Source: a virus
IMG/VR virus record: IMGVR_UViG_3300042868_003573
Coordinates: 1 to 21,391 of that record
DNA: 21,391 nt
Direction: 5' to 3' (one strand)
Position 1 is the stretch's first letter. Each line of letters begins with the position of its first letter. Below are positions 5,052-16,939 of the stretch, piece after piece. A program made the translations under genes and the position numbers. The notes below the pieces were generated by a model. The model was not told the DNA's origin, searched no databases, and worked only from the letters and a program-made list of their open reading frames with translations.

Positions 5052-5511
5052 TAGGATAGCAACTGCACATCCTAAAATCAGAGAAGAGTTAAAGAATTAT
5101 TATATCGAATGTAATAACAAACTGCCAAAGGGTGTTAGATTGCGTTTTGCGTACGTTTATCGAAGTGTAGAAGAACAAAACAAGCTATACGCTCAAAGAC
5201 CTAAAGTAACGAACGCTAAAGGTGGACAATCAATTCATAATTATTCCTTAGCTTTTGATTACGTGATAATGTTAGACAAAGACAATAACGGAACATTTGA
5301 AACAATTGAATGGAGTTTAGCATCGCCATATCACAAAGTAGTAGTAGACTATTTTAAGTCTAAAGGGTATGAATGGGGTGGGGATTGGAAATTCAAAGAT
5401 GCACCTCATTTTCAGAAAGCGTTCGGTCACACATGGCAAAGTTTGAAACGTAAACTAGATACAGGAGATAGTTTCAAAGACGTAAACGGATTAACCTATC
5501 CAAAAATATAA
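5032..5511 (+). CDS. Endolysin, M15-family L-alanyl-D-glutamate/D-Ala-D-Ala-type peptidase
   Basis: A 159-aa zinc peptidase that cleaves peptidoglycan stem peptides at the end of infection. The M15 motifs are visible: QSIHNYSLAFDYV with His69 and Asp76 as zinc ligands, and WKFKDAPHFQ with His126 as the third ligand and Asp123 in the catalytic position. There is no signal peptide, so it needs a holin, and a holin candidate overlaps it upstream. The catalytic domain ends near residue 131. The last ~30 residues (from GHTWQSLKRKLDTG) are encoded within a duplicated 154-bp block, so this tail recurs fused to another N-terminus at 5959-6084. A strong terminator follows 9 nt after the stop. Confidence 0.88.
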   Translation: MDQLTIDRIATAHPKIREELKNYYIECNNKLPKGVRLRFAYVYRSVEEQNKLYAQRPKVTNAKGGQSIHNYSLAFDYVIMLDKDNNGTFETIEWSLASPYHKVVVDYFKSKGYEWGGDWKFKDAPHFQKAFGHTWQSLKRKLDTGDSFKDVNGLTYPKI

Positions 5512-5577
5512 AGAATTAACCTACTCAAAACGAGTGGGTTTTTTTATAATTAAAACTTTTTTTTCTTGAATTGTTAT
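5424..5577 (+). repeat. Direct repeat copy 1 (endolysin 3' end, terminator, promoter start)
   Basis: These 154 bp recur at 5997-6149 with a single difference that I can find: eight versus seven T in one homopolymer. The block runs from CGGTCACACATGGCAAAG through the last ~30 endolysin codons, the terminator hairpin and the first 7 nt of a promoter. The near-identity means the duplication is recent or kept homogeneous by recombination. Confidence 0.93.
5520..5545 (+). terminator. Intrinsic terminator after endolysin
   Basis: CCTACTC pairs with GAGTGGG around a 5-nt AAAAC loop (7 bp, one G-U), followed by seven T. It ends the virion/lysis transcript immediately before promoter P1. Confidence 0.85.
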
Positions 5578-5604
5578 GATATTATAATAAAAGCATTATA
5601 TTTG
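5571..5604 (+). promoter_or_regulatory. Promoter P1 with ATTATAATAAA box
   Basis: The Bacteroidota pattern is present: TTG at 5571, 23 nt, then TATATTTG at 5597-5604, about 20 nt before the start codon at 5625. The spacer holds ATTATAATAAA at 5581-5591. The same element at the same offset is found at 6143-6176 and 15318-15351. It drives the 68-aa gene and probably the RNA and small gene after it. Confidence 0.75.
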
Positions 5605-5958: not shown

Positions 5959-6084
5959 ATGGGCAGAACTACAAAAATATGGAAATGTAACCATTGCGGT
6001 CACACATGGCAAAGTTTGAAACGTAAACTAGATACAGGAGATAGTTTCAAAGACGTAAACGGATTAACCTATCCAAAAATATAA
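5959..6084 (+). CDS. Chimeric small ORF: zinc-ribbon start fused to endolysin C-terminus
   Basis: A 41-aa frame. Its first 14 residues, MGRTTKIWKCNHCG, contain one CxxC knuckle as in small phage zinc ribbons. From GHTWQSLKRKLDTG onward it is identical in sequence and frame to the endolysin C-terminus. The junction falls where a zinc-ribbon continuation (CGHxWQS) and the endolysin (FGHTWQS) look alike, so a crossover at short similarity would explain it. The second CxxC expected of a zinc ribbon is missing, so the product is probably non-functional as a metal site. Best read as a broken gene that still has an open frame. Confidence 0.55.
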   Translation: MGRTTKIWKCNHCGHTWQSLKRKLDTGDSFKDVNGLTYPKI

Positions 6085-6149
6085 AGAATTAACCTACTCA
6101 AAACGAGTGGGTTTTTTTATAATTAAAACTTTTTTTCTTGAATTGTTAT
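5997..6149 (+). repeat. Direct repeat copy 2
   Basis: The second copy of the block at 5424-5577, offset by 573 bp and 153 bp long. Homologous recombination between the copies would remove the 68-aa gene, the tRNA-like RNA and the zinc-ribbon start, leaving a single endolysin-terminator-promoter unit. Confidence 0.93.
6093..6118 (+). terminator. Intrinsic terminator, duplicate
   Basis: The same CCTACTC/GAGTGGG hairpin and seven-T tract as at 5520-5545, inside repeat copy 2. It insulates the cassette from the following early-gene run. Confidence 0.83.
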
Positions 6150-9397: not shown

Positions 9398-9646
9398 CAT
9401 CTCTACATCTCTACACATCTCTACAGTCATCTCTACAGCTACAACCCTAGTAAAATATAGGGTTTACGTAAAAGTGTAGAGATGTAGAGGAGAAATGCCA
9501 ATCTTTTATATAAAAGGGAACAGGTGAAAATAAAAAAAATCGTAAATTCATCTCTACATCTCTACAAAAAATCATAACTAATATTAAAATCAATACTTTA
9601 ACCCGTAGAGATGAGTGTAGAGATAGCGTAAAGATGTGTAGAGATG
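9398..9646 (+). repeat. Iteron array, likely replication origin
   Basis: This gene-free region holds a 10-bp unit, CATCTCTACA, in both orientations. Exact + copies are at 9398, 9406, 9416, 9428, 9549 and 9557. Exact reverse copies (TGTAGAGATG) are at 9475 and 9637. Near copies in reverse are at 9483, 9604, 9616 and 9627. An AACCCTA/TAGGGTT hairpin (9443-9464) and a very A+T-rich stretch (about 9505-9548) lie between the clusters. Iterons plus an A+T-rich segment next to a replicative helicase gene is the usual build of an initiator-dependent origin. A multi-site regulator binding region is the alternative. Confidence 0.72.
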
Positions 9647-9667
9647 TAATTATTTTTATAAAAAGTA

Positions 9668-9697
9668 TTGTAGATTAAAAAAGAATACTTATATTTG
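9668..9697 (+). promoter_or_regulatory. Promoter, TTG-19-TATATTTG
   Basis: TTG at 9668-9670, a 19-nt spacer, TATATTTG at 9690-9697: a textbook Bacteroidota promoter directly downstream of the iterons. Transcription would begin close to the first strand of the pseudoknot RNA. Confidence 0.8.
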
Positions 9698-9707
9698 TCA
9701 ACGTTCT

Positions 9708-9798
9708 CATCCTACATTATAAGAACAAAGAGATTTTAAGAGCCTCTATTATGAATAACAAGGTAGGATGTGTTAGGATTAATAGGGGCTTTTTATTT
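9708..9798 (+). ncRNA. Pseudoknot leader RNA 1, with terminator
   Basis: Stem A joins CATCCTAC (9708-9715) to GTAGGATG (9763-9770), 8 bp. Stem B joins GCCTCTATTA (9742-9751) to TAATAGGGGC (9780-9789), 10 bp with one G-U. The strands interleave A-B-A'-B', an H-type pseudoknot, and a T-rich tract follows stem B, so B doubles as a terminator stem. It ends 12 nt before the lipoprotein start. It shares its topology, not its sequence, with the elements at 14407 and 16339. Confidence 0.6.
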
Positions 9799-9810
9799 AA
9801 ACAAATTATT

Positions 9811-10074
9811 ATGAAAAAATTAGTATTAGTATTAGCAATTGGATTGTTTAGCTGTCAGAAAGAAGAGGTAACACCACAGCCTGTTACTCCCGTTAAAAAC
9901 TGTAATTGTGATAGAATAGTAAATATTGTTAGGGCAAAGTATAGTTTCCCTGGACAACCGAATACATATTGGGCTACAATAACAACTGTTAATGATTGTT
10001 CTAATTGGCAAAAGCAATATTCTTATGAAAGCAATTATTCTATTTATTCTAAAAAAGAAGGAGATTGTTATTAA
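9811..10074 (+). CDS. Small secreted lipoprotein
   Basis: An 87-aa protein read from the ATG at 9811; an upstream in-frame ATG at 9751 lies inside the leader RNA stem and gives no signal peptide. The signal peptide KKLVLVLAIGLFSC ends in a lipobox (LFSC), with Cys15 as the lipidated residue, followed by a Pro/Thr/Val linker (EEVTPQPVTPVK) and a small Cys-containing domain (NCNCDR, NDCSNW, EGDCY). This build is frequent in flavobacterial genomes. In a phage it fits a surface-acting moron such as a superinfection-exclusion or receptor-masking lipoprotein, which is inference. It has its own promoter and leader and sits between origin and helicase, unlike its metabolic neighbours. Confidence 0.7.
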   Translation: MKKLVLVLAIGLFSCQKEEVTPQPVTPVKNCNCDRIVNIVRAKYSFPGQPNTYWATITTVNDCSNWQKQYSYESNYSIYSKKEGDCY

Positions 10075-10271
10075 TGGAAGAGACTTGGAAACACTTAGAA
10101 GAGAATTATTACATTAGTAATTTTGGTAATGTTATGAATAGAAACACTAATCGTAACTTAAAGCCTATAAAATGCAATCAATATAAAACAAAAGTAACTT
10201 TGACACTAGATAACAATAGTAGAAAAAAAGATGTATTTAATAATAGAGTAGATAATATAAAAGTAATATGA
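10074..10271 (+). CDS. NUMOD4-like fragment without HNH domain
   Basis: A 65-aa protein from the ATG overlapping the lipoprotein stop by 1 nt. EETWKHLEENYYISNFGNVM follows the pattern of the NUMOD4 DNA-binding motif (compare GYEGLYQVSNLGNVKSL in the two complete HNH proteins here), with a LKPIKCNQYKTKVTLTL continuation. The HNH and AP2-like parts are absent. It then ends in an ATGA overlap with the helicase gene. It looks like the remnant of a homing-type nuclease, either decayed or kept as a DNA-binding peptide. Confidence 0.5.
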   Translation: MEETWKHLEENYYISNFGNVMNRNTNRNLKPIKCNQYKTKVTLTLDNNSRKKDVFNNRVDNIKVI

Positions 10272-11743
10272 TAAATCCAGACGAGAAATTTTGGTCAGTA
10301 AACCAAGACGGTAAAGTATCATTGAACAATTTTAAGTTCAAAAGATTCTTAGAAATAAATAATTTTAGTAAAAACAAACCTAACCCAAATAGTACATTCA
10401 ACATTATTAAAAAGAATGGTATATTTTTAGAAATAGTAGATGAAGTAGATCTTAAAGATTTTGTGCTTAAACATATCTTAGAGCAAGGCTTGAGTGAGGA
10501 TGTATATAATCTTATGACTTCAAATATAAAGTTCTTTAAAAGGGATTATTTAAGTATGATTGATAGTAAAGAAATTAAAGTGCTTAAAGATACAAAAGAC
10601 ACTGCATACTTATTTTACGAAAATGGTGTTCTAGAAGTTACTAAAAATAAGTCCGAACTTAAAAACTACTCTGATTTTAATCTTAATATTTGGGAAAATC
10701 AGGTTATAAAAAGAAAGTATGTAGATTCAGACCATCACCATTCAGAATTTAGGAAGTTTGTTTGGAAAATATCAGGTGGTTTTGATTTAGGAAGCACACC
10801 ATCTGCAGATGAAAAAATTAAATACGATTCTGCTGTTGATAGATATAATTCATTTCAAAGTGCAATAGGATATTTAATTCATTCATATAAGACATCAGGT
10901 AATAATAAAGCAATTATTCTTAACGATGAAATGATAAGTGATTCACCAAATGGAAGAAGCGGTAAGGGTGTATTTTGGAATAGTTTAAAACATATGAAAA
11001 AATTACAGTCAATTGATGGTAAACAATTTAAATTTGGTGGTGACTTTCCTTATCAATCAGTAAAAACAGATTGTCAGATATTAGTATTTGATGATGTTAA
11101 AAAGAACTTTCAATTTGAGAATTTGTTCAGTGTAATTACGGAAGGGATTGACATTACTTACAAGGGTAAAGACACTATTAAGCTACCTGTAGAAGATTCA
11201 CCAAAGATTATAATATCTACTAATTACGTTTTAAAGGGTAATGGAGACTCACACGATGCACGTAAATTTGAATTGGAACTATCTACTTTCTTTAATGCTA
11301 ATAATACACCATTTGAGTTCTTTGGACATTATTTATTTACAGATTGGAATGATTTAGAGTGGGCTAGGTTTGATTGTTATATGATTGAATGCTTAAAAAA
11401 GTATTTAAACAATGGTTTGGTATCTTATAAATCAATATCTTTGCCTGTTAAAAAACTTGAAGCAGATTTAGGGAAAGAATTATTTGAATATTGTCAAGAA
11501 TTACCAAGAAACGAATGGTTAAGTGGACAGGAAACATATGATAAATACAAGTTTAGTTTATCAAAATCATTCTTAGCAAAGTCTAAAAAGGAAGTAACAC
11601 AATCAATTAAGAAGTATTGTCAATTTTATGGATATGAATACGATTCACGTTCTCCAGGTGGACTTCTTAAATTTATGATAATGGAAGGAAGTATTAATAA
11701 TATTGAAGACATTTGGGATTCAAACGAACTACAAGGATTATGA
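10268..11743 (+). CDS. Replicative helicase, superfamily 3 (D5-like), primase domain not evident
   Basis: A 491-aa protein. The ATPase motifs of SF3 helicases are visible: Walker A SPNGRSGKGVF at about residues 225-235, Walker B QILVFDDV near 270-277, and motif C KIIISTN near 313-319. These hexameric enzymes unwind phage DNA from an origin. The N-terminal ~200 residues show no obvious primase catalytic residues; they may recruit a primase or bind the origin. A C-terminal winged-helix-like part (KSFLAKSKKEVTQSIKKYC) is typical of D5 proteins. The gene begins about 600 bp after the iteron array and overlaps both neighbours by ATGA, making it the likely initiator-helicase of the element. Confidence 0.82.
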   Translation: MINPDEKFWSVNQDGKVSLNNFKFKRFLEINNFSKNKPNPNSTFNIIKKNGIFLEIVDEVDLKDFVLKHILEQGLSEDVYNLMTSNIKFFKRDYLSMIDSKEIKVLKDTKDTAYLFYENGVLEVTKNKSELKNYSDFNLNIWENQVIKRKYVDSDHHHSEFRKFVWKISGGFDLGSTPSADEKIKYDSAVDRYNSFQSAIGYLIHSYKTSGNNKAIILNDEMISDSPNGRSGKGVFWNSLKHMKKLQSIDGKQFKFGGDFPYQSVKTDCQILVFDDVKKNFQFENLFSVITEGIDITYKGKDTIKLPVEDSPKIIISTNYVLKGNGDSHDARKFELELSTFFNANNTPFEFFGHYLFTDWNDLEWARFDCYMIECLKKYLNNGLVSYKSISLPVKKLEADLGKELFEYCQELPRNEWLSGQETYDKYKFSLSKSFLAKSKKEVTQSIKKYCQFYGYEYDSRSPGGLLKFMIMEGSINNIEDIWDSNELQGL

Positions 11744-11949
11744 CAATAGATAGTATAATAGTAATTAAGAAGATTGAAAGCATAATGGATAAGTACAAAG
11801 ATTCAATGGATTGGCTGCAAGAAAATCATGCGACTAGAAAGGATTTAATATCTAGTTTACAGCAGTCAATATTTATGCTCGGATTAATTAGAAAAGATAT
11901 AATTATGTACGACACTAAAATAGAAGCAAAAGAATGGATGGAAAACTAA
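11740..11949 (+). CDS. Hypothetical small helical protein A
   Basis: A 69-aa protein from the ATG overlapping the helicase stop (ATGA); an upstream in-frame start at 11713 would lie deep in the helicase gene. It is helical and charged (IDSIIVIKKIESIMDKYKDS, then RKDLISSLQQSIFMLGLIRK). It resembles the next gene in length and in helix pattern (a DKY segment, then a long basic helix), so the pair may be distant duplicates. No motif is known. Coupled to the helicase, it could be an accessory factor. Confidence 0.52.
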   Translation: MTIDSIIVIKKIESIMDKYKDSMDWLQENHATRKDLISSLQQSIFMLGLIRKDIIMYDTKIEAKEWMEN

Positions 11950-12134
11950 GTAATATAATAATAGATGCTGAAATTGATAAGATAAGCAATTCAATGCAAG
12001 AAATTATTGATAAATACCCTGAGAGATTGGAAACGATAGGAAAACTAAACTATGTGCTAAAAGATTTACAACACGTAAAAAGACATTTAAACTATTTAAT
12101 TAAGAAGTATGAAGCAACAACAAAAATTATTTGA
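11934..12134 (+). CDS. Hypothetical small helical protein B
   Basis: A 66-aa protein overlapping the previous gene by 16 nt and the next by 26 nt. It has the pattern AEIDKISNSMQEIIDKYPER followed by a basic helix (KDLQHVKRHLNYLIKKYEA). It is similar in plan to the preceding 69-aa protein and predicted to be a two-helix coiled hairpin. No catalytic or metal site. Its role is unknown; the overlaps indicate co-translation with the replication genes. Confidence 0.5.
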   Translation: MDGKLSNIIIDAEIDKISNSMQEIIDKYPERLETIGKLNYVLKDLQHVKRHLNYLIKKYEATTKII

Positions 12135-12360
12135 TGATATAGAAGATATTTATCAAAGTGAATGGAAGGGGATGCCAGAGTTTAACATGACTCCTGAAGT
12201 GCCTATTTTAACAATTAAATTAAATTTTAAAACGAAAGAAGATATTGAAAAATTTAGTGAGTTAATCGGTCAAAAAATAACTTTTAATACCGAGAATTAT
12301 TGGTATCCTAAATTAAATAGAAAAGCATTTTCAGAAAAAAAATATCACGATGAACCCTAA
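12109..12360 (+). CDS. Small conserved partner of the glycosyltransferase
   Basis: An 83-aa protein with YQSEWKGMPEFNMTPEVPIL, then TIKLNFKTKEDIEKFSELIG and TENYWYPK. A GMPEF element followed by a beta-alpha unit ending in IGQKIT and a WYP motif is a combination I recall beside TET-associated-type glycosyltransferases and ParB-like genes in phages. Its function is not known; a single ferredoxin-like beta-alpha-beta unit that binds a partner is plausible. It overlaps the glycosyltransferase gene by 11 nt, which supports joint action. Confidence 0.58.
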   Translation: MKQQQKLFDDIEDIYQSEWKGMPEFNMTPEVPILTIKLNFKTKEDIEKFSELIGQKITFNTENYWYPKLNRKAFSEKKYHDEP

Positions 12361-13171
12361 GTATCCAATTTATATAATAAGTAAGGGTAGATGGAAATCA
12401 AGACTTACAAGTAAGGCGTTAGAAAGCATGAATGTTCCTTACAAAATTGTAATCGAGCCACAAGAATATCAAGAGTATTCAAAAGTAATTGACAAAAATA
12501 AAATACTAGTATTACCTTTTAGTAATTTAGGATTAGGTGGAATCCCAGCGAGAAATTGGGTATGGGAACATTCAATAAGTGAGGGGCATTTAAAACATTG
12601 GATTTTAGATGATAATATTAGAGCATTTAGAAGATATAATGATGACATTAAATACTTAGTTACATCAGGTACTATATTTAAATGTGCCGAAGATTTTGTA
12701 GATAGATATGAAAATATAGCAATCGCTGGGTTTCAGTATAGTTCATTCATGGCTTATAATAGACAGAAAAGACCTTTTACAATAAATACACGAATTTATT
12801 CATGTTTGCTAATTGATAATAGTATCGATTATAGATGGAGAGGAAAATATAATGAAGATTCTGACTTATCTATTAGAGTGTTAAAAGATGGTTATTGTAC
12901 AGTTTTATTTAATGCGTTCTTACAAGATAAACAAAGTACAATGACTATGAAAGGCGGGAATACAGATAGTATTTATAATACAGGAGATAATCGCATGGAA
13001 TTTGCTAAATCACTTGAAGAACAGCACCCTGATTGTGTTAAAGTAATATGGAGATTTAATCGTTGGCATCATAGCATAAACTTCAATTCATTTAAAAAAA
13101 ATAAACTAATTCGTAAAAAATGTATTATAATAAAAGATGGTATAAATAATTACAATATGATTTTAAAATAA
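12350..13171 (+). CDS. GT-A-type glycosyltransferase, TET-associated (TAGT) family
   Basis: A 273-aa protein. YPIYIISKGRWKSRLTSKAL followed by VPYKIVIEPQEYQEY matches the N-terminus of the TAGT family. The GT-A features are the LPFSNLGLGGIPARNWVWEH segment, HWILDDNIRAF with Asp88-Asp89 as the metal/nucleotide-sugar site, and KYNEDSDLSIRVLKDG near residue 170. Family members are proposed to add sugars to hydroxymethylated bases in phage DNA, protecting it from host nucleases. No TET/JBP oxygenase, hydroxymethylase or dNMP kinase is visible in the window, so the acceptor may be host-made or something else. It is coupled upstream to the 83-aa protein and followed 2 nt later by the SF2 helicase. 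Confidence 0.78.
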   Translation: MNPKYPIYIISKGRWKSRLTSKALESMNVPYKIVIEPQEYQEYSKVIDKNKILVLPFSNLGLGGIPARNWVWEHSISEGHLKHWILDDNIRAFRRYNDDIKYLVTSGTIFKCAEDFVDRYENIAIAGFQYSSFMAYNRQKRPFTINTRIYSCLLIDNSIDYRWRGKYNEDSDLSIRVLKDGYCTVLFNAFLQDKQSTMTMKGGNTDSIYNTGDNRMEFAKSLEEQHPDCVKVIWRFNRWHHSINFNSFKKNKLIRKKCIIIKDGINNYNMILK

Positions 13172-13173
13172 TT

Positions 13174-14388
13174 ATGAAAAAACAACTAAGAGATTACCAG
13201 CTTGACCTATCACAAAAAGCTGTTGATATACTCCGAGATAAGAAGATAGTGTACTTAAATTTTAGTGTAAGAACAGGTAAGACAGCAACAGCATTAGAAA
13301 CGTGTAGACTATACGGAGCAAAGAAAGTATTGTTTCTAACTAAAAAGAAAGCTATTACTTCTATTCAAAACGATTATAATGACTTTGGATATACATTTGA
13401 CCTAGTTGTTATCAATAACGAATCACTATCCAAGGTAATAGGAAATGATTTCGATGTAGTTGTGCAAGATGAAGCACATGGAATGGCATCTTTCCCAAAG
13501 CCAAGTAATAAAGCAAAGGAATTTAAAGCACGTTTTTCAAGAATACCATTGATATTATTATCAGGGACCATGGCTGCAGAATCATACTCGCAAGTTTACC
13601 ATCAATTTTGGTTAAGTGCTTATAGTCCTTTTAGCCAATATAAAAACTTTTATGCGTGGGCCAAGGTATTTACACAACCAACACTAAAATATGTAAGCTA
13701 CGGAACTATAAATGATTATTCAGCAGCTAAGATTGATTTAATTGATGCAGTAATACAACCATACATTTTAAAATTCACTCAAGAAAATGCCGGCTTCGAA
13801 AGTAAGGTAAACGAAAAAGTAATATATTTTGATAGTTGCAATAAAAAGATAATCGATAAACTAAAAAAAGACCTTGTAGTTGAAGGGAAGAAAGAAGTTA
13901 TTTTAGCAGATACTTCTATAAAGCTAATGCAAAAGATTCATCAACTTGAAAATGGCACTTGTAAATTCGAGTCGGGAAAATCTATGATACTTGATACTTC
14001 CAAAGGTGAATTTATTAAAGAGCATTTTAAAGGTAAAAAGTTAGCAATTTTATATTTTTTCATAGAAGAATTTCATTTGTTGCAGTTTGAATTTCCTAAT
14101 CATACCACATCCATTGAAGAATTTAATACAACTGATAAGCATTATTTAGGTCAAATGTATTCAAGTAGTATGGGTATAAATTTAAGTAGTGCAGATTGTT
14201 TGATAATGTATAACATAGGATATTCAGGGACAAATTTTATACAGGCACGTGACCGATTAACAACTCAAACCCGAAAAGAAAATGATGTTTATTTTATATA
14301 TGGAAAAGGTAGTTTGACTGAGCAAATTCATAAGACTGTTTCACAGAAGAAAAACTTTACAGAAGCACAATTTAAGAAATATATTTAG
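13174..14388 (+). CDS. Superfamily 2 DEAH-type helicase/translocase
   Basis: A 404-aa protein. Motifs in order: LRDYQLDLSQKAVD (Q-like lead), Walker A SVRTGKTATAL at about residues 31-40, DEAH at about 99-102 in VVQDEAHGM, SGT (motif III) near 130, and a C-terminal motif VI-like QARDRLTTQTR near residue 360. This is a compact SNF2/UvsW-like helicase of the type used by phages for branch migration or origin processing. It starts 2 nt after the glycosyltransferase. It is followed by a pseudoknot leader and an HNH gene placed between it and a VRR-NUC nuclease, which is the helicase's usual neighbour. Confidence 0.86.
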   Translation: MKKQLRDYQLDLSQKAVDILRDKKIVYLNFSVRTGKTATALETCRLYGAKKVLFLTKKKAITSIQNDYNDFGYTFDLVVINNESLSKVIGNDFDVVVQDEAHGMASFPKPSNKAKEFKARFSRIPLILLSGTMAAESYSQVYHQFWLSAYSPFSQYKNFYAWAKVFTQPTLKYVSYGTINDYSAAKIDLIDAVIQPYILKFTQENAGFESKVNEKVIYFDSCNKKIIDKLKKDLVVEGKKEVILADTSIKLMQKIHQLENGTCKFESGKSMILDTSKGEFIKEHFKGKKLAILYFFIEEFHLLQFEFPNHTTSIEEFNTTDKHYLGQMYSSSMGINLSSADCLIMYNIGYSGTNFIQARDRLTTQTRKENDVYFIYGKGSLTEQIHKTVSQKKNFTEAQFKKYI

Positions 14389-14485
14389 TATATTTACATC
14401 TGTATTGTCGCAGATACTTTAAGAACTTTAATAATTCCCTATCATGACGAAACTGCGACTTCCGATTGATGGGGTTTTTTATTTT
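14389..14485 (+). ncRNA. Pseudoknot leader RNA 2, with terminator
   Basis: A TATATTTA -7-like element (14389-14396) abuts the helicase stop, though no clear TTG is upstream. Stem A joins GTCGCAG (14407-14413) to CTGCGAC (14453-14459), 7 bp. Stem B joins CCCTATCA (14437-14444) to TGATGGGG (14467-14474), 8 bp with one G-U. The order is A-B-A'-B', followed by TTTTTTATTTT up to the HNH start codon. Stem B plus the T tract is a terminator, so the HNH gene needs readthrough or a fold change to be expressed from here. Confidence 0.6.
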
Positions 14486-14998
14486 ATGGAAGAAATATTT
14501 AAAGACATTCCTGGTTATGAAGGATTGTATCAAGTGAGTAATTTAGGTAATGTAAAGAGTTTATCTAGGCAAATATGGAATGGTAAAGTTTTCTTTATTT
14601 CTAAAGATAAAATACTAAAGCCAGGAGGAAATGGAACTGGTTATTTATTAGTAATGTTAAGATTAGGTAATAATTTTAAAGCAAAAACAATACATTCATT
14701 AGTTGCAGAAACATTTTTAAATCATAATAAAAATAATAAAAGAATAGTAGTAGACCATATAAATGGAGATAGGTCAGATAATAGATTAGAAAACTTACAA
14801 GTTATAACTCAAAGAGAGAATACTTCAAAAGATAAAAAAAATAAAACTTCTAAATACACAGGAGTATGTTGGAATAGATTTAATAATAAATGGATGTCAG
14901 GAATTAGAATTAGTGGTAAAAAAATACATATAGGCTATTTCAAATGCGAATTAGCTGCTCACTTAGCTTATCAAAACAAACTTAAAGATATAATATAA
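14486..14998 (+). CDS. NUMOD4-HNH-AP2-like homing endonuclease 1
   Basis: A 170-aa free-standing homing-type nuclease. The start at 14486 is chosen because the in-frame ATG at 14444 lies in the leader RNA. Domains: NUMOD4 (FKDIPGYEGLYQVSNLG, about residues 5-55), HNH_3 (VVDHINGDRSDNRLENLQVI, about 90-110, with DH, N and N as the active-site pattern), then an AP2-like DNA-binding end (KYTGVCWNRFNNKWMSGIRI to the C-terminus). Such nucleases cut uninvaded alleles and spread by recombination. It sits between the SF2 helicase and VRR-NUC genes, a likely insertion, and ends in TAATG overlap with the latter. Paralogous to the protein at 16433. Confidence 0.85.
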   Translation: MEEIFKDIPGYEGLYQVSNLGNVKSLSRQIWNGKVFFISKDKILKPGGNGTGYLLVMLRLGNNFKAKTIHSLVAETFLNHNKNNKRIVVDHINGDRSDNRLENLQVITQRENTSKDKKNKTSKYTGVCWNRFNNKWMSGIRISGKKIHIGYFKCELAAHLAYQNKLKDII

Positions 14999-15315
14999 TG
15001 GCATCGGCATTCCAAACGAAAATAAAAACCACATTCGAAAAGAATAATTGGTTCGTAATTAATCTAATCAAAACAAATAAGAATGGTATCCCTGACTTAC
15101 ATTGTATTAAGAATGGAGTATCAATATTTATTGAATCAAAGGAAATAAAGGATACTTTAAAGCCATTACAGATGTACCGAATTGATGAATTAAACCAACA
15201 AAATACATCTGCAATCTGTTTACAAAAGTCTAAAGGAATAACTTATGGTAATATAATTCATTCAGATATAGAAAGTTATGATACAATAATGAAAATAATT
15301 GAAAATATATTATAG
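14998..15315 (+). CDS. VRR-NUC domain nuclease
   Basis: A 105-aa single-domain PD-(D/E)XK nuclease. The VRR-NUC signature is present: NKNGIPDLHCIKNGVSIFIE, giving the PD...ExK catalytic set (Asp in IPDLH, then Glu and Lys in IESKE), followed by LKPLQMYRIDEL, the Q-x-x-x-(L/I) helix. Members of the family resolve or nick branched DNA structures. Next to a helicase it probably processes replication or recombination intermediates. Its length is typical of phage versions (90-120 aa). It starts in TAATG overlap with the inserted HNH gene, showing how neatly that gene was fitted in. Confidence 0.82.
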   Translation: MASAFQTKIKTTFEKNNWFVINLIKTNKNGIPDLHCIKNGVSIFIESKEIKDTLKPLQMYRIDELNQQNTSAICLQKSKGITYGNIIHSDIESYDTIMKIIENIL

Positions 15316-15317
15316 AA

Positions 15318-15351
15318 ATGTGATTATATTATAATAAAATAGTTATATTTG
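15318..15351 (+). promoter_or_regulatory. Promoter P3 with ATTATAATAAA box
   Basis: The same 34-bp layout as P1 and P2: ATTATAATAAA at 15328-15338 and TATATTTG at 15344-15351. The TTG is replaced by ATG (15318). It is far from the duplicated region, so the shared box is not a by-product of that duplication. It serves the genes from 15381 or 15465. Confidence 0.65.
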
Positions 15352-15380
15352 TCATATAGAAACAATTTAATATTTGAGTT

Positions 15381-15617
15381 ATGAGTTACCCAAGTCCCTA
15401 TTTAAAAGTAAAGTTTAAAACAAATTACGCTACTGGGTGTAGTGAATTAATTAAAGAAAAAGTTATGACAACTGAAGAGAAAGCAAGAAAGTACGATGAG
15501 TTAATGTTAACCATACAAGAGATGGAACTAATGTACACAAAGGCATTGGATAAATATCCAAGTCTTACGGAAATGATACAAGAAAAGTTAAACGTATTAA
15601 AACTAGTTAAATTATGA
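15381..15617 (+). CDS. Hypothetical small protein
   Basis: 78 aa from the first ATG, or 50 aa from the internal ATG at 15465, which gives MTTEEKARKYDELMLTIQEM, a start I find more protein-like because the preceding 28 residues are Tyr/Lys-rich and unlike a domain. The C-terminal part is a charged helical hairpin (MYTKALDKYPSLTEMIQEKL) similar in style to the two small proteins at 11740-12134. It is the first gene behind P3 and overlaps the next gene by ATGA. Function unknown. Confidence 0.5.
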   Translation: MSYPSPYLKVKFKTNYATGCSELIKEKVMTTEEKARKYDELMLTIQEMELMYTKALDKYPSLTEMIQEKLNVLKLVKL

Positions 15618-15820
15618 AGATAGTAGCAGATTTAACGGATAAGCATGAAATTAACCTAAAAATAATCAAAAGACTTGGTTACATATTAGGTGAAGAAGTC
15701 AACACCAAACCACAACAAGTATCACTAGCAATGGATATGTTGCAATACTTAATGTGGGAATTCAGTGAGCCAGAACTAATAGAAATAATCTTAAAAAATA
15801 AAGACAATGAAAGAACATAA
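15614..15820 (+). CDS. Hypothetical small protein
   Basis: A 68-aa protein that is mostly helical after a short beta start (KIVADLTDKHEINLKIIKRL, then PQQVSLAMDMLQYLMWEFSE). Acidic overall, no known motif. It is translationally coupled at both ends: an ATGA overlap upstream and a 14-nt overlap downstream with the candidate ssDNA-binding protein. The position suggests an accessory role in recombination or replication, without direct evidence. Confidence 0.5.
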   Translation: MKIVADLTDKHEINLKIIKRLGYILGEEVNTKPQQVSLAMDMLQYLMWEFSEPELIEIILKNKDNERT

Positions 15821-16325
15821 TATAGATTGCATGAAACACAGAAAGCATACACATATAAGCGGTGTAGATGTAGAAATGATAACTGCTGAGAAAGGTAGTT
15901 GTATAGTTACAATTAAAGACGCTTATTTTAGTCGTGGAGTAGATGTATCAGGAAATAAAACAGATGCTTATTTTTTAGAGTTTGAAGAAGATGTTATGGA
16001 TATGGTTTGCAATTCTACCAATAGAAAAAGAATAGCAAATAACTTAATGATTGAAAAGAAAATAACACCATTAGAATCTCGTAATATTGGCAACTGGATA
16101 GGATTAAAGATTAATTTAAAATTTGATCCAAGTATAAAAATGATGGGGAAGATTACAGGTGGTATAGTTGTAGATAGCATAAAAATACTTCCTGATTTAA
16201 TTATTGATAGTGATAACTTTAAAGCAGTAAAAGATGCTGTTACAAATAAAGGATATACATTAGATCAAGTTCGTAGCAAATATAATTTATCAAAAGAATG
16301 TGAAGCATTGCTATTAAAGAAATAA
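15807..16325 (+). CDS. Phage ssDNA-binding-like (OB-fold candidate) protein
   Basis: A 172-aa protein. The central part, TVDVSGNK-like turn then DAYFLEFEEDVMDMVCNSTN, followed by NWIGLKINLKFDPSIKMMGK and a TGGIVVDSIKIL strand, follows a pattern shared by phage proteins encoded beside recombination exonucleases (the LNKTN...WIGK...GIRV pattern), which I take to be OB-fold, ssDNA-binding type. The last ~45 residues (FKAVKDAVTNKGYTLDQVRS) form a helical tail that could contact partners. Its normal neighbour is probably the exonuclease at 16942, from which it is now parted by the leader RNA and HNH gene. The function is inferred, with moderate support. Confidence 0.5.
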   Translation: MKEHNIDCMKHRKHTHISGVDVEMITAEKGSCIVTIKDAYFSRGVDVSGNKTDAYFLEFEEDVMDMVCNSTNRKRIANNLMIEKKITPLESRNIGNWIGLKINLKFDPSIKMMGKITGGIVVDSIKILPDLIIDSDNFKAVKDAVTNKGYTLDQVRSKYNLSKECEALLLKK

Positions 16326-16337
16326 TTTGTATATTTG
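16308..16337 (+). promoter_or_regulatory. Promoter, TTG-19-TATATTTG
   Basis: TTG at 16308-16310, a 19-nt spacer, TATATTTG at 16330-16337. The -33 element lies inside the end of the preceding gene, so this promoter came with, or was built onto, the insertion point. The pseudoknot RNA begins 1 nt downstream of the -7 element. Confidence 0.8.
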
Positions 16338-16338
16338 C

Positions 16339-16414
16339 AAACAAGGATAGGTTAGAGGTAATTGGCTAACTGAAAGACGAAGCGTTTACGTTTTCCTTGT
16401 TTCTTTTAAACGCT
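16339..16414 (+). ncRNA. Pseudoknot leader RNA 3
   Basis: Stem A joins AAACAAGGA (16339-16347) to TCCTTGTTT (16394-16402), 9 perfect bp. Stem B joins AGCGTTTA (16381-16388) to TAAACGCT (16407-16414), 8 perfect bp. The order is A-B-A'-B'. The first loop also holds a GTTAG/CTAAC hairpin (16351-16370). No T tract follows, so unlike the other two it is not a terminator; stem B ends 18 nt before the HNH start codon and could affect its translation. Confidence 0.6.
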
Positions 16415-16432
16415 AATTAAACGTATAAAAAC

Positions 16433-16939
16433 ATGAATGAAAATTGGAAAGATGTAATTGGATACGAAGGATTGTATCAAGTATCTAATTTAGGTAGAGT
16501 GAAGAGTTTAAATAGATTTGTAACTAGAGGTTGTAATTCAGTATTTAGAACAGGAAATGTATTAAAATCTTCTATCACTAAAGATTATTTAAAAGTAGTG
16601 TTATCTAAAGATGCAAATAAAAAAACATTTACAATACATCAACTTATGGCTATAGCTTTTTTAAATCATAAAGTAGATGGACATAAATTAGTCGTGGATC
16701 ATATTGATTCTAATAAAACCAATAATCGGTTAGAAAATTTACAGATAGTATCTCAAAGAGAAAATGTATCTAAATCAAACAAGTTAAAAACATCTAAATA
16801 CATTGGTGTTTTTTGGTGTAAATCAAAAAATAAATGGGTTAGTAGAATTACAATAAACAATAAAAGATTTTTTTTAGGTTCATTTAATTGCGAATTAACT
16901 GCTCACTTAGCATACCAAAACAAATTAAAAACAATATAA
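16433..16939 (+). CDS. NUMOD4-HNH-AP2-like homing endonuclease 2
   Basis: A 168-aa paralogue of the nuclease at 14486. NUMOD4 (WKDVIGYEGLYQVSNLGRVK), HNH_3 (VVDHIDSNKTNNRLENLQIV) and the AP2-like tail (KYIGVFWCKSKNKWVSRITI) are all present and complete. The two proteins end almost identically (CELxAHLAYQNKLK). It lies between the OB-fold candidate and the exonuclease, which normally form a recombination pair, so this is again a likely insertion. It has its own promoter and a pseudoknot leader but ends only 2 nt before the exonuclease start, so the exonuclease may depend on its transcript. Confidence 0.86.
   Translation: MNENWKDVIGYEGLYQVSNLGRVKSLNRFVTRGCNSVFRTGNVLKSSITKDYLKVVLSKDANKKTFTIHQLMAIAFLNHKVDGHKLVVDHIDSNKTNNRLENLQIVSQRENVSKSNKLKTSKYIGVFWCKSKNKWVSRITINNKRFFLGSFNCELTAHLAYQNKLKTI

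Follow-up and report, generated by a model that had tools for sequence, protein, structure and literature searches.

The sequence analysed here, hereafter the window, is the IMG/VR virus record IMGVR_UViG_3300042868_003573 (21,391 bases). It has a G+C content of 31% and contains portal, terminase, helicase, exonuclease and replication-type genes, and its intergenic promoters have the Bacteroidota box TAnnTTTG; IMG/VR is rich in related contigs of about 34–35 kb. Three elements lying between such promoters and start codons, W1 (9703–9794), W2 (14402–14480) and W3 (16339–16424), all on the plus strand like the boxes, leader parts and genes located in the next section, are the subject of this study. 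The original prediction had regarded them as leader RNAs of a single pseudoknot topology. Our analysis strongly supports the view that mobile genes carry structured leaders whose helices covary and for which there is no named counterpart, and it divides these leaders into two types: W1 and W2 belong to type I and W3 to type II. We consider it fairly probable that phage promoter and start codon are separated here by structured 5′ leaders of two families, with type I serving as an attenuator and type II as a start-site switch. Comparison of sequences shows both folds, their covariation, their positions, the insertion of a cassette at one site, and the exchange of type I and type II at another.

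Leaders and genes at the locus

Every stem, TATATTTG/A box and start-codon distance on which the original prediction was based is present in the sequence. The promoter −7 boxes are TATATTTG at 9690–9697 for W1 (of the Bacteroidota TAnnTTTG type), TATATTTA at 14389–14396 for W2, and TATATTTG at 16330–16337 for W3, and the second predicted helix, stem B, ends 21, 11 and 18 nucleotides (nt) before the start codon, respectively.

A type I element consists of two hairpins. The loop of the first, a small 5′ hairpin, pairs perfectly over 7–11 base pairs (bp) with that of the second, and the second hairpin has a U-tract at its end and resembles an intrinsic terminator. The first predicted helix of W1 and W2, stem A, is a loop–loop kiss in which both strands are hairpin loops, an arrangement absent from the original prediction. 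In W1, hairpin 1 (9703–9726; minimum free energy (MFE) fold and flank tests) has the stem GTTCT (9703–9707)/AGAAC (9722–9726), and its loop holds the kissing strand CATCCTAC (9708–9715), which pairs with GTAGGATG (9763–9770). The latter lies in the loop of the apical stem TAACA (9756–9760)/TGTTA (9771–9775) of hairpin 2 (MFE fold and flank test). The basal stem of hairpin 2 (9738–9751/9780–9793; MFE fold, z −2.7) contains the earlier stem B, GCCTCTATTA (9742–9751) paired with TAATAGGGGC (9780–9789), which can be extended to 14 bp, and a terminator-like U-tract (9790–9794) follows the GC-rich stem base. W2 has the same build. Its hairpin 1 (14402–14417; flank and own/swapped tests) has the stem GTAT (14402–14405)/ATAC (14414–14417) around the kissing strand GTCGCAG (14407–14413), and its hairpin 2 has the basal stem CCCTATCA (14437–14444)/TGATGGGG (14467–14474; own/swapped test and MFE fold), the apical stem GAA (14449–14451)/TTC (14460–14462) around the kissing strand CTGCGAC (14453–14459), and a U-tract at 14475–14480.

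A single topology for all three elements did not hold up: W1 and W2 have hairpin stems around both kissing strands, whereas W3 aligns with a family of three-way junctions, and this alignment with about 25 type II elements rules out W3 as a type I member. The W3 junction (16339–16402; alignment and covariation) is enclosed by P1, AAACAAGGA (16339–16347)/TCCTTGTTT (16394–16402), which is followed by a conserved TAG (16348–16350). P2 (16351–16355/16366–16370) carries the loop AGGTAATTGG (16356–16365) and is followed by TGAA (16371–16374), and P3, AGACG (16375–16379)/CGTTT (16389–16393), carries the 9-nt loop AAGCGTTTA (16380–16388; alignment and covariation). This loop is complementary to two tandem downstream copies, TAAACGCT (16407–16414) and TAAACGT (16418–16424), the second of which ends 8 nt before the start codon; in the family, the copy-1 helix is 100% paired and the copy-2 helix 90% paired. 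The earlier stem B of W3, in which AGCGTTTA (16381–16388) pairs with TAAACGCT, corresponds to the first of these; the junction architecture and the second copy had not been noticed.

The proposal that a NUMOD4-type gene is the first or second gene downstream agrees with the Pfam matches. NUMOD4-HNH-AP2 homing endonuclease genes lie directly behind W2 (14486–14998) and W3 (16433–16939). Behind W1, a short lipoprotein-like open reading frame without a Pfam match (9811–10074) is followed by a truncated NUMOD4 gene (10074–10271; Pfam E 1.7e-4) and by a replication-type gene (10268–11743; phrog_28855, with a match in phage MW202828 annotated as VirE-type), relatives of which have a type I leader directly upstream. 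W1 heads this replication operon, which had also escaped the original prediction. Its description of the leaders as lying on mobile genes holds for the homing-endonuclease genes but is too narrow for type I.

In-frame ATG codons occur within hairpin 2 of W1 (9751) and W2 (14444) and likewise in L002, L003, L086 and L102; they are possible alternative starts. The promoters at 5597, 6169 and 15344 share an extended upstream sequence (TATTATAATAAA...TATATTTG), and their leaders, which are short and A-rich with neither evident structure nor a T-tract, form a contrast class to the structured leaders.

Comparative evidence for two families

A descriptor scan for a promoter box followed by two interleaved helices found this pattern at 43 of 2,976 promoter-like sites, against 6 after shuffling; when a nearby gene start was also required, there were 29 cases against 0 (20 phage contigs, whole or in large part). 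About 50 distinct type I elements with differing helices were collected and compared side by side. The 5′ kissing strand lies in a loop closed by 4–6 bp (GTAG-AGTGGAAG-CTAC in L004, GTTG-GTAGGCT-CAAC in L161) and the 3′ kissing strand in the apical loop of hairpin 2 (TGATG-TGTGGTAG-CATCA in L182), so that both pairing strands are mutually complementary hairpin loops, as in loop–loop kissing. The flanking stems, which were not used in selection, exceed shuffled flanks by about 5 standard deviations (sd), with scores of 3.88 against 2.57 for P1 (sd 0.25) and 4.21 against 2.77 for P3 (sd 0.26).

The covariance-model search for homologues that had been suggested with the original prediction returned further copies with compensatory changes. 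Our model R1 comprised only the first hairpin and the basal stem, leaving the kiss out, and found further type I copies. Among its hits, which include the 8 building sequences, a kiss of at least 7 bp forms with the own partner in 22 of the 24 distinct loop pairs, against 3.1% of swapped pairs. In L139:568, a natural variant, the kiss is broken. Under nested MFE folding, W1 and W2 each formed both hairpins, and L163 formed hairpin 2 (z −2.4 to −3.2).

The end of type I has the form of an intrinsic terminator, a GC-rich hairpin and then a U-tract, upstream of a gene, and the start codon usually follows 10–26 nt beyond hairpin 2. Across 37 non-redundant elements, of which two are type II, T occupies positions +1 to +6 after the GC core of hairpin 2 in 95, 92, 81, 76, 84 and 65% of cases, and A occupies positions −4 to −1, the flank opposite the T-tract, in 62–70%. 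Weak model matches in host chromosomes looked like ordinary terminators with the same A-tract/stem/T-tract shape. This form supports, short of proof, transcription termination at type I. The unpaired positions of type I are weakly conserved.

For type II, a search pattern was derived from W3 and a second example, in which GGATAG, the P2 loop and TGAA were fixed and the helices and P3 loop were free. It yielded about 25 further elements, whose invariance at the fixed parts is partly built in by the pattern; the coding-region-like matches L338, L343, L345, L350, L355, L358 and L372 were discarded. Nearly all type II elements lie about 90 nt upstream of the start codon of an endonuclease-type gene, mostly NUMOD4-HNH and also other HNH-like genes; two of the HNH-like matches fall below the Pfam cut-off, and L347 has none. 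The elements align in the order P1, TAG, P2 with loop ARGTAATTRG, TGAA, P3 with the 9-nt loop, and P1′. The covariation in this alignment is overwhelming: 96.9% of cells are paired against 75.5%, there are 135 double changes against 40 expected, the covariation score is 0.588 against 0.177, and none of 500 shuffles reached any of the observed measures. Together with the own-partner kisses of type I, these values bear out the claim that the helices covary. The second copy also covaries (score 0.382 against 0.187), and two downstream complements of at least 6 nt are present for 10 of 10 distinct loops, compared with 3 of 90 swapped combinations; the ten loops include L232, L021 and a diverged subtype found in Polaribacter phages P12002L/S at about 13.2 kb and in a metagenome-assembled genome (MAG) locus, L189.

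Some type I elements have an extra hairpin in the linker (L009 at 979 and 2847, L114 at 1771, L182 at 3725; for example GGTTAATTACTTAACC), which in L009 is flanked by TAG and GAA, much as in type II. These elements are a possible evolutionary link between the two types.

Cassettes and distribution

The W2 site of the window holds a cassette of promoter, type I leader and endonuclease gene (approximately 14380–14989) that is absent in the relatives L084 and L085, which have neither leader nor gene there. Other type I leaders occupy the same site in G001, together with a GIY-YIG-type gene, and in G003, together with another NUMOD4 gene; the stems are different in each. These relatives show that promoter, leader and gene were inserted at this site together. 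At the W3 site, the sequence of G004 follows that of the window as far as TATATTTGCA, beyond which come a type I leader and then a NUMOD4 gene; since the window has type II at this position, the leader types can stand in for each other. These results suggest that, in phages of Flavobacterium-like bacteria, a mobile gene is able to carry its own RNA control device.

In most relatives, type I lies upstream of the replication-type gene (relatives of 10268–11743), at 23–46 nt in L150, L157 and L163, and in others a lipoprotein-like or endonuclease gene intervenes. Type I also precedes NUMOD4-HNH genes, GIY-YIG-type (T5orf172) genes, one HNH gene and DUF6291 genes. Among cultured phages, Flavobacterium columnare phage FCV-1, located via its endonuclease gene, has type I before a NUMOD4-type gene annotated as hypothetical, and Polaribacter phage P12002L has a canonical type II element ahead of an annotated HNH homing endonuclease gene; both designs are therefore directly testable. 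A search of named phages with the type I leader returned chance matches only. Type II also occurs in a Bacteroidales MAG (L232) and in a phage with a TATAAT-type promoter (L021).

Both types are nearly absent from host genomes. A host origin of the leaders was rejected, as 299 Flavobacteriaceae and 295 Bacteroidales-order genomes gave only weak terminator-like hits and a single type II locus, the L232 already mentioned. A search of bacterial genomes with the replication protein found no relative. In L031 and L044, which belong to other, G+C-richer phages, the NUMOD4 genes have a long GC-rich hairpin upstream, near the start codon.

Possible mechanism and relation to known systems

From these data we infer transcription start, termination, start-site control and timing as follows. 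In type I, the nascent RNA would fold the 5′ hairpin, and its loop would kiss the loop of hairpin 2, a putative intrinsic terminator just ahead of the gene. By default, part of the transcription would probably terminate there, and the start site would lie near a stable hairpin, giving limited or timed expression, and the kiss may stiffen the terminator hairpin or make it conditional. In type II, the conserved three-way junction would offer its 9-nt loop to either of two tandem complements. Because copy 2 lies about 8–10 nt before the start codon, mutually exclusive pairing could switch ribosome access. Homing-endonuclease cassettes carry one leader or the other, and the presence of type I on both endonuclease cassettes and the replication operon suggests that the endonuclease is timed with replication. 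More tentatively, and with less confidence than in the attenuator and start-site switch themselves, type II could be a bistable switch that senses a phage or host factor, and homing cassettes across Bacteroidota phages and one TATAAT-promoter group could carry either this switch or a kissing-loop attenuator borrowed from the replication operon, thereby timing their cutting with replication.

Several points weigh against the attenuator and start-site switch. The elements were discovered with a descriptor, so that support for the type I basal stem is not independent of selection. The U-tract could be an AU-rich start-site spacer. Within type I, stems have diverged about as fast as loops, which gives no pointer to sequence-specific recognition of the kissing loops and also leaves the idea of diversifying selection on them, as in incompatibility or an arms race, unsupported. 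Reading of about 50 elements, without a systematic search, brought no conserved alternative structure to notice that could disrupt the type I terminator, and a type I switch is accordingly hypothetical. The second copy is weaker in a few type II members.

Among other explanations, we regard a ligand- or protein-sensing riboswitch as unlikely, though it deserves serious attention. The type II junction (GGATAG, P2 loop ARGTAATTRG and TGAA) would bind a metabolite, or else a protein of phage or host, and the bound partner would decide whether copy 1 or copy 2 is used; its unpaired nucleotides are invariant while the helices vary freely, and its loop partners are mutually exclusive. However, this invariance is partly a product of the search pattern, the downstream genes are mostly nucleases with no common metabolic theme, no ligand is known, and the unpaired positions of type I are weakly conserved.

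It is rather improbable that the leaders serve to stabilise mRNA, as compact 5′ structures that prevent 5′-end-dependent decay, with the U-rich stretch as an unstructured start-site spacer. Hairpin 1 does begin only a few nt from where transcription is expected to start, the start regions of Bacteroidota are known to be AU-rich, and a benefit would be expected for essential operons and selfish genes alike. Yet host intrinsic terminators have this very form, a T-tract directly at the base of the stem and an A-tract facing it, the short leaders of the promoters at 5597, 6169 and 15344 have no T-tract, and the two loop complements of type II are left unexplained.

We give still less weight to independent trans-acting small RNAs of about 80–95 nt, running from promoter to terminator, with the downstream gene reached by read-through. 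Type I has a promoter, a compact fold and a terminator-like end, and a second promoter would not fit between the U-tract and the start codon; against this, the elements lie nearly always directly ahead of a start codon (10–26 nt), and each loop changes from copy to copy in step with its own partner alone, so that no shared target in trans can be seen. It is highly improbable that the leaders are self-cleaving ribozymes or remnants of introns that travel with homing genes: the folds are pseudoknotted and 75–95 nt long, and homing endonucleases are generally known to travel often with ribozymes, but no Rfam ribozyme or intron family matches at relaxed thresholds, and the leaders, which have a promoter of their own, are intergenic and do not interrupt a gene.

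The original prediction knew of no named family with such features; in agreement with this, none of 4227 Rfam 15 families scored above its gathering threshold in the window. The type I loci gave no Rfam match at relaxed E-values, and W3, L021, L232, L189 and L188 gave chance-level matches only at relaxed thresholds. No such leaders appeared among the titles and abstracts of open-access papers, the scope of our literature search. An IscB/OMEGA (HEARO) guide RNA was rejected, as the genes are NUMOD4-HNH-AP2, HNH or GIY-YIG (T5orf172) and there was no HEARO match.

Like intrinsic-terminator attenuators and riboswitch expression platforms, type I places a terminator-like hairpin and U-tract between promoter and start codon. 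In type I, however, a 5′ hairpin holds the loop of the terminator by kissing it, the helix sequences are not conserved, and no competing antiterminator was noticed in the elements read, again without a systematic search. Loop pairing or attenuation controls a replication gene in the IncI-alpha/IncB repZ, ColE1 RNA I/II and pT181 plasmid systems, which are generally known to use loop–loop helices of 6–8 bp, but the type I kiss forms within one RNA, and in phages instead of plasmids. Type II recalls the preQ1, SAM-II, fluoride, ZTP and glutamine riboswitches, compact pseudoknotted leaders (H-type pseudoknot or three-way junction) near a start codon, in having a conserved junction; it differs in its one loop with two tandem targets, its downstream endonuclease genes and its lack of Rfam matches beyond chance. 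As generally known for I-TevI and others, T4 leaders that hide the start region limit the expression of free-standing phage endonucleases, but these are single hairpins, while here two conserved families are parts of cassettes. Structured leaders and attenuators are already known; what appears to be new is the two architectures described here and the link of both to homing cassettes.

Our results bear on the question of how free-standing homing genes spare their carrier phage: mobile endonuclease cassettes come with a promoter of their own and with a conserved folded leader, and the two leader designs, which are unrelated, are interchangeable at one site. With one loop and two complements in tandem, type II offers a simple natural design for a switch, and a kiss across an intrinsic terminator would make type I an unusual attenuator.

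Other features of the window were also observed. Just upstream of W1 and the replication-type gene, the region 9398–9648 contains several direct and inverted copies of CATCTCTACA/TGTAGAGATG, iteron-like repeats that may mark a replication origin. An exact 140-bp duplication (5424–5563 and 5997–6136) spans the 3′ end of a peptidase-like gene and its terminator, and the adjoining stretch, with the following promoter, is likewise duplicated at about 80% identity. The gene at 12350–13171 encodes a TET-associated glycosyltransferase (PF20691, E 4e-44), suggesting that the phage may have glycosylated modified bases.

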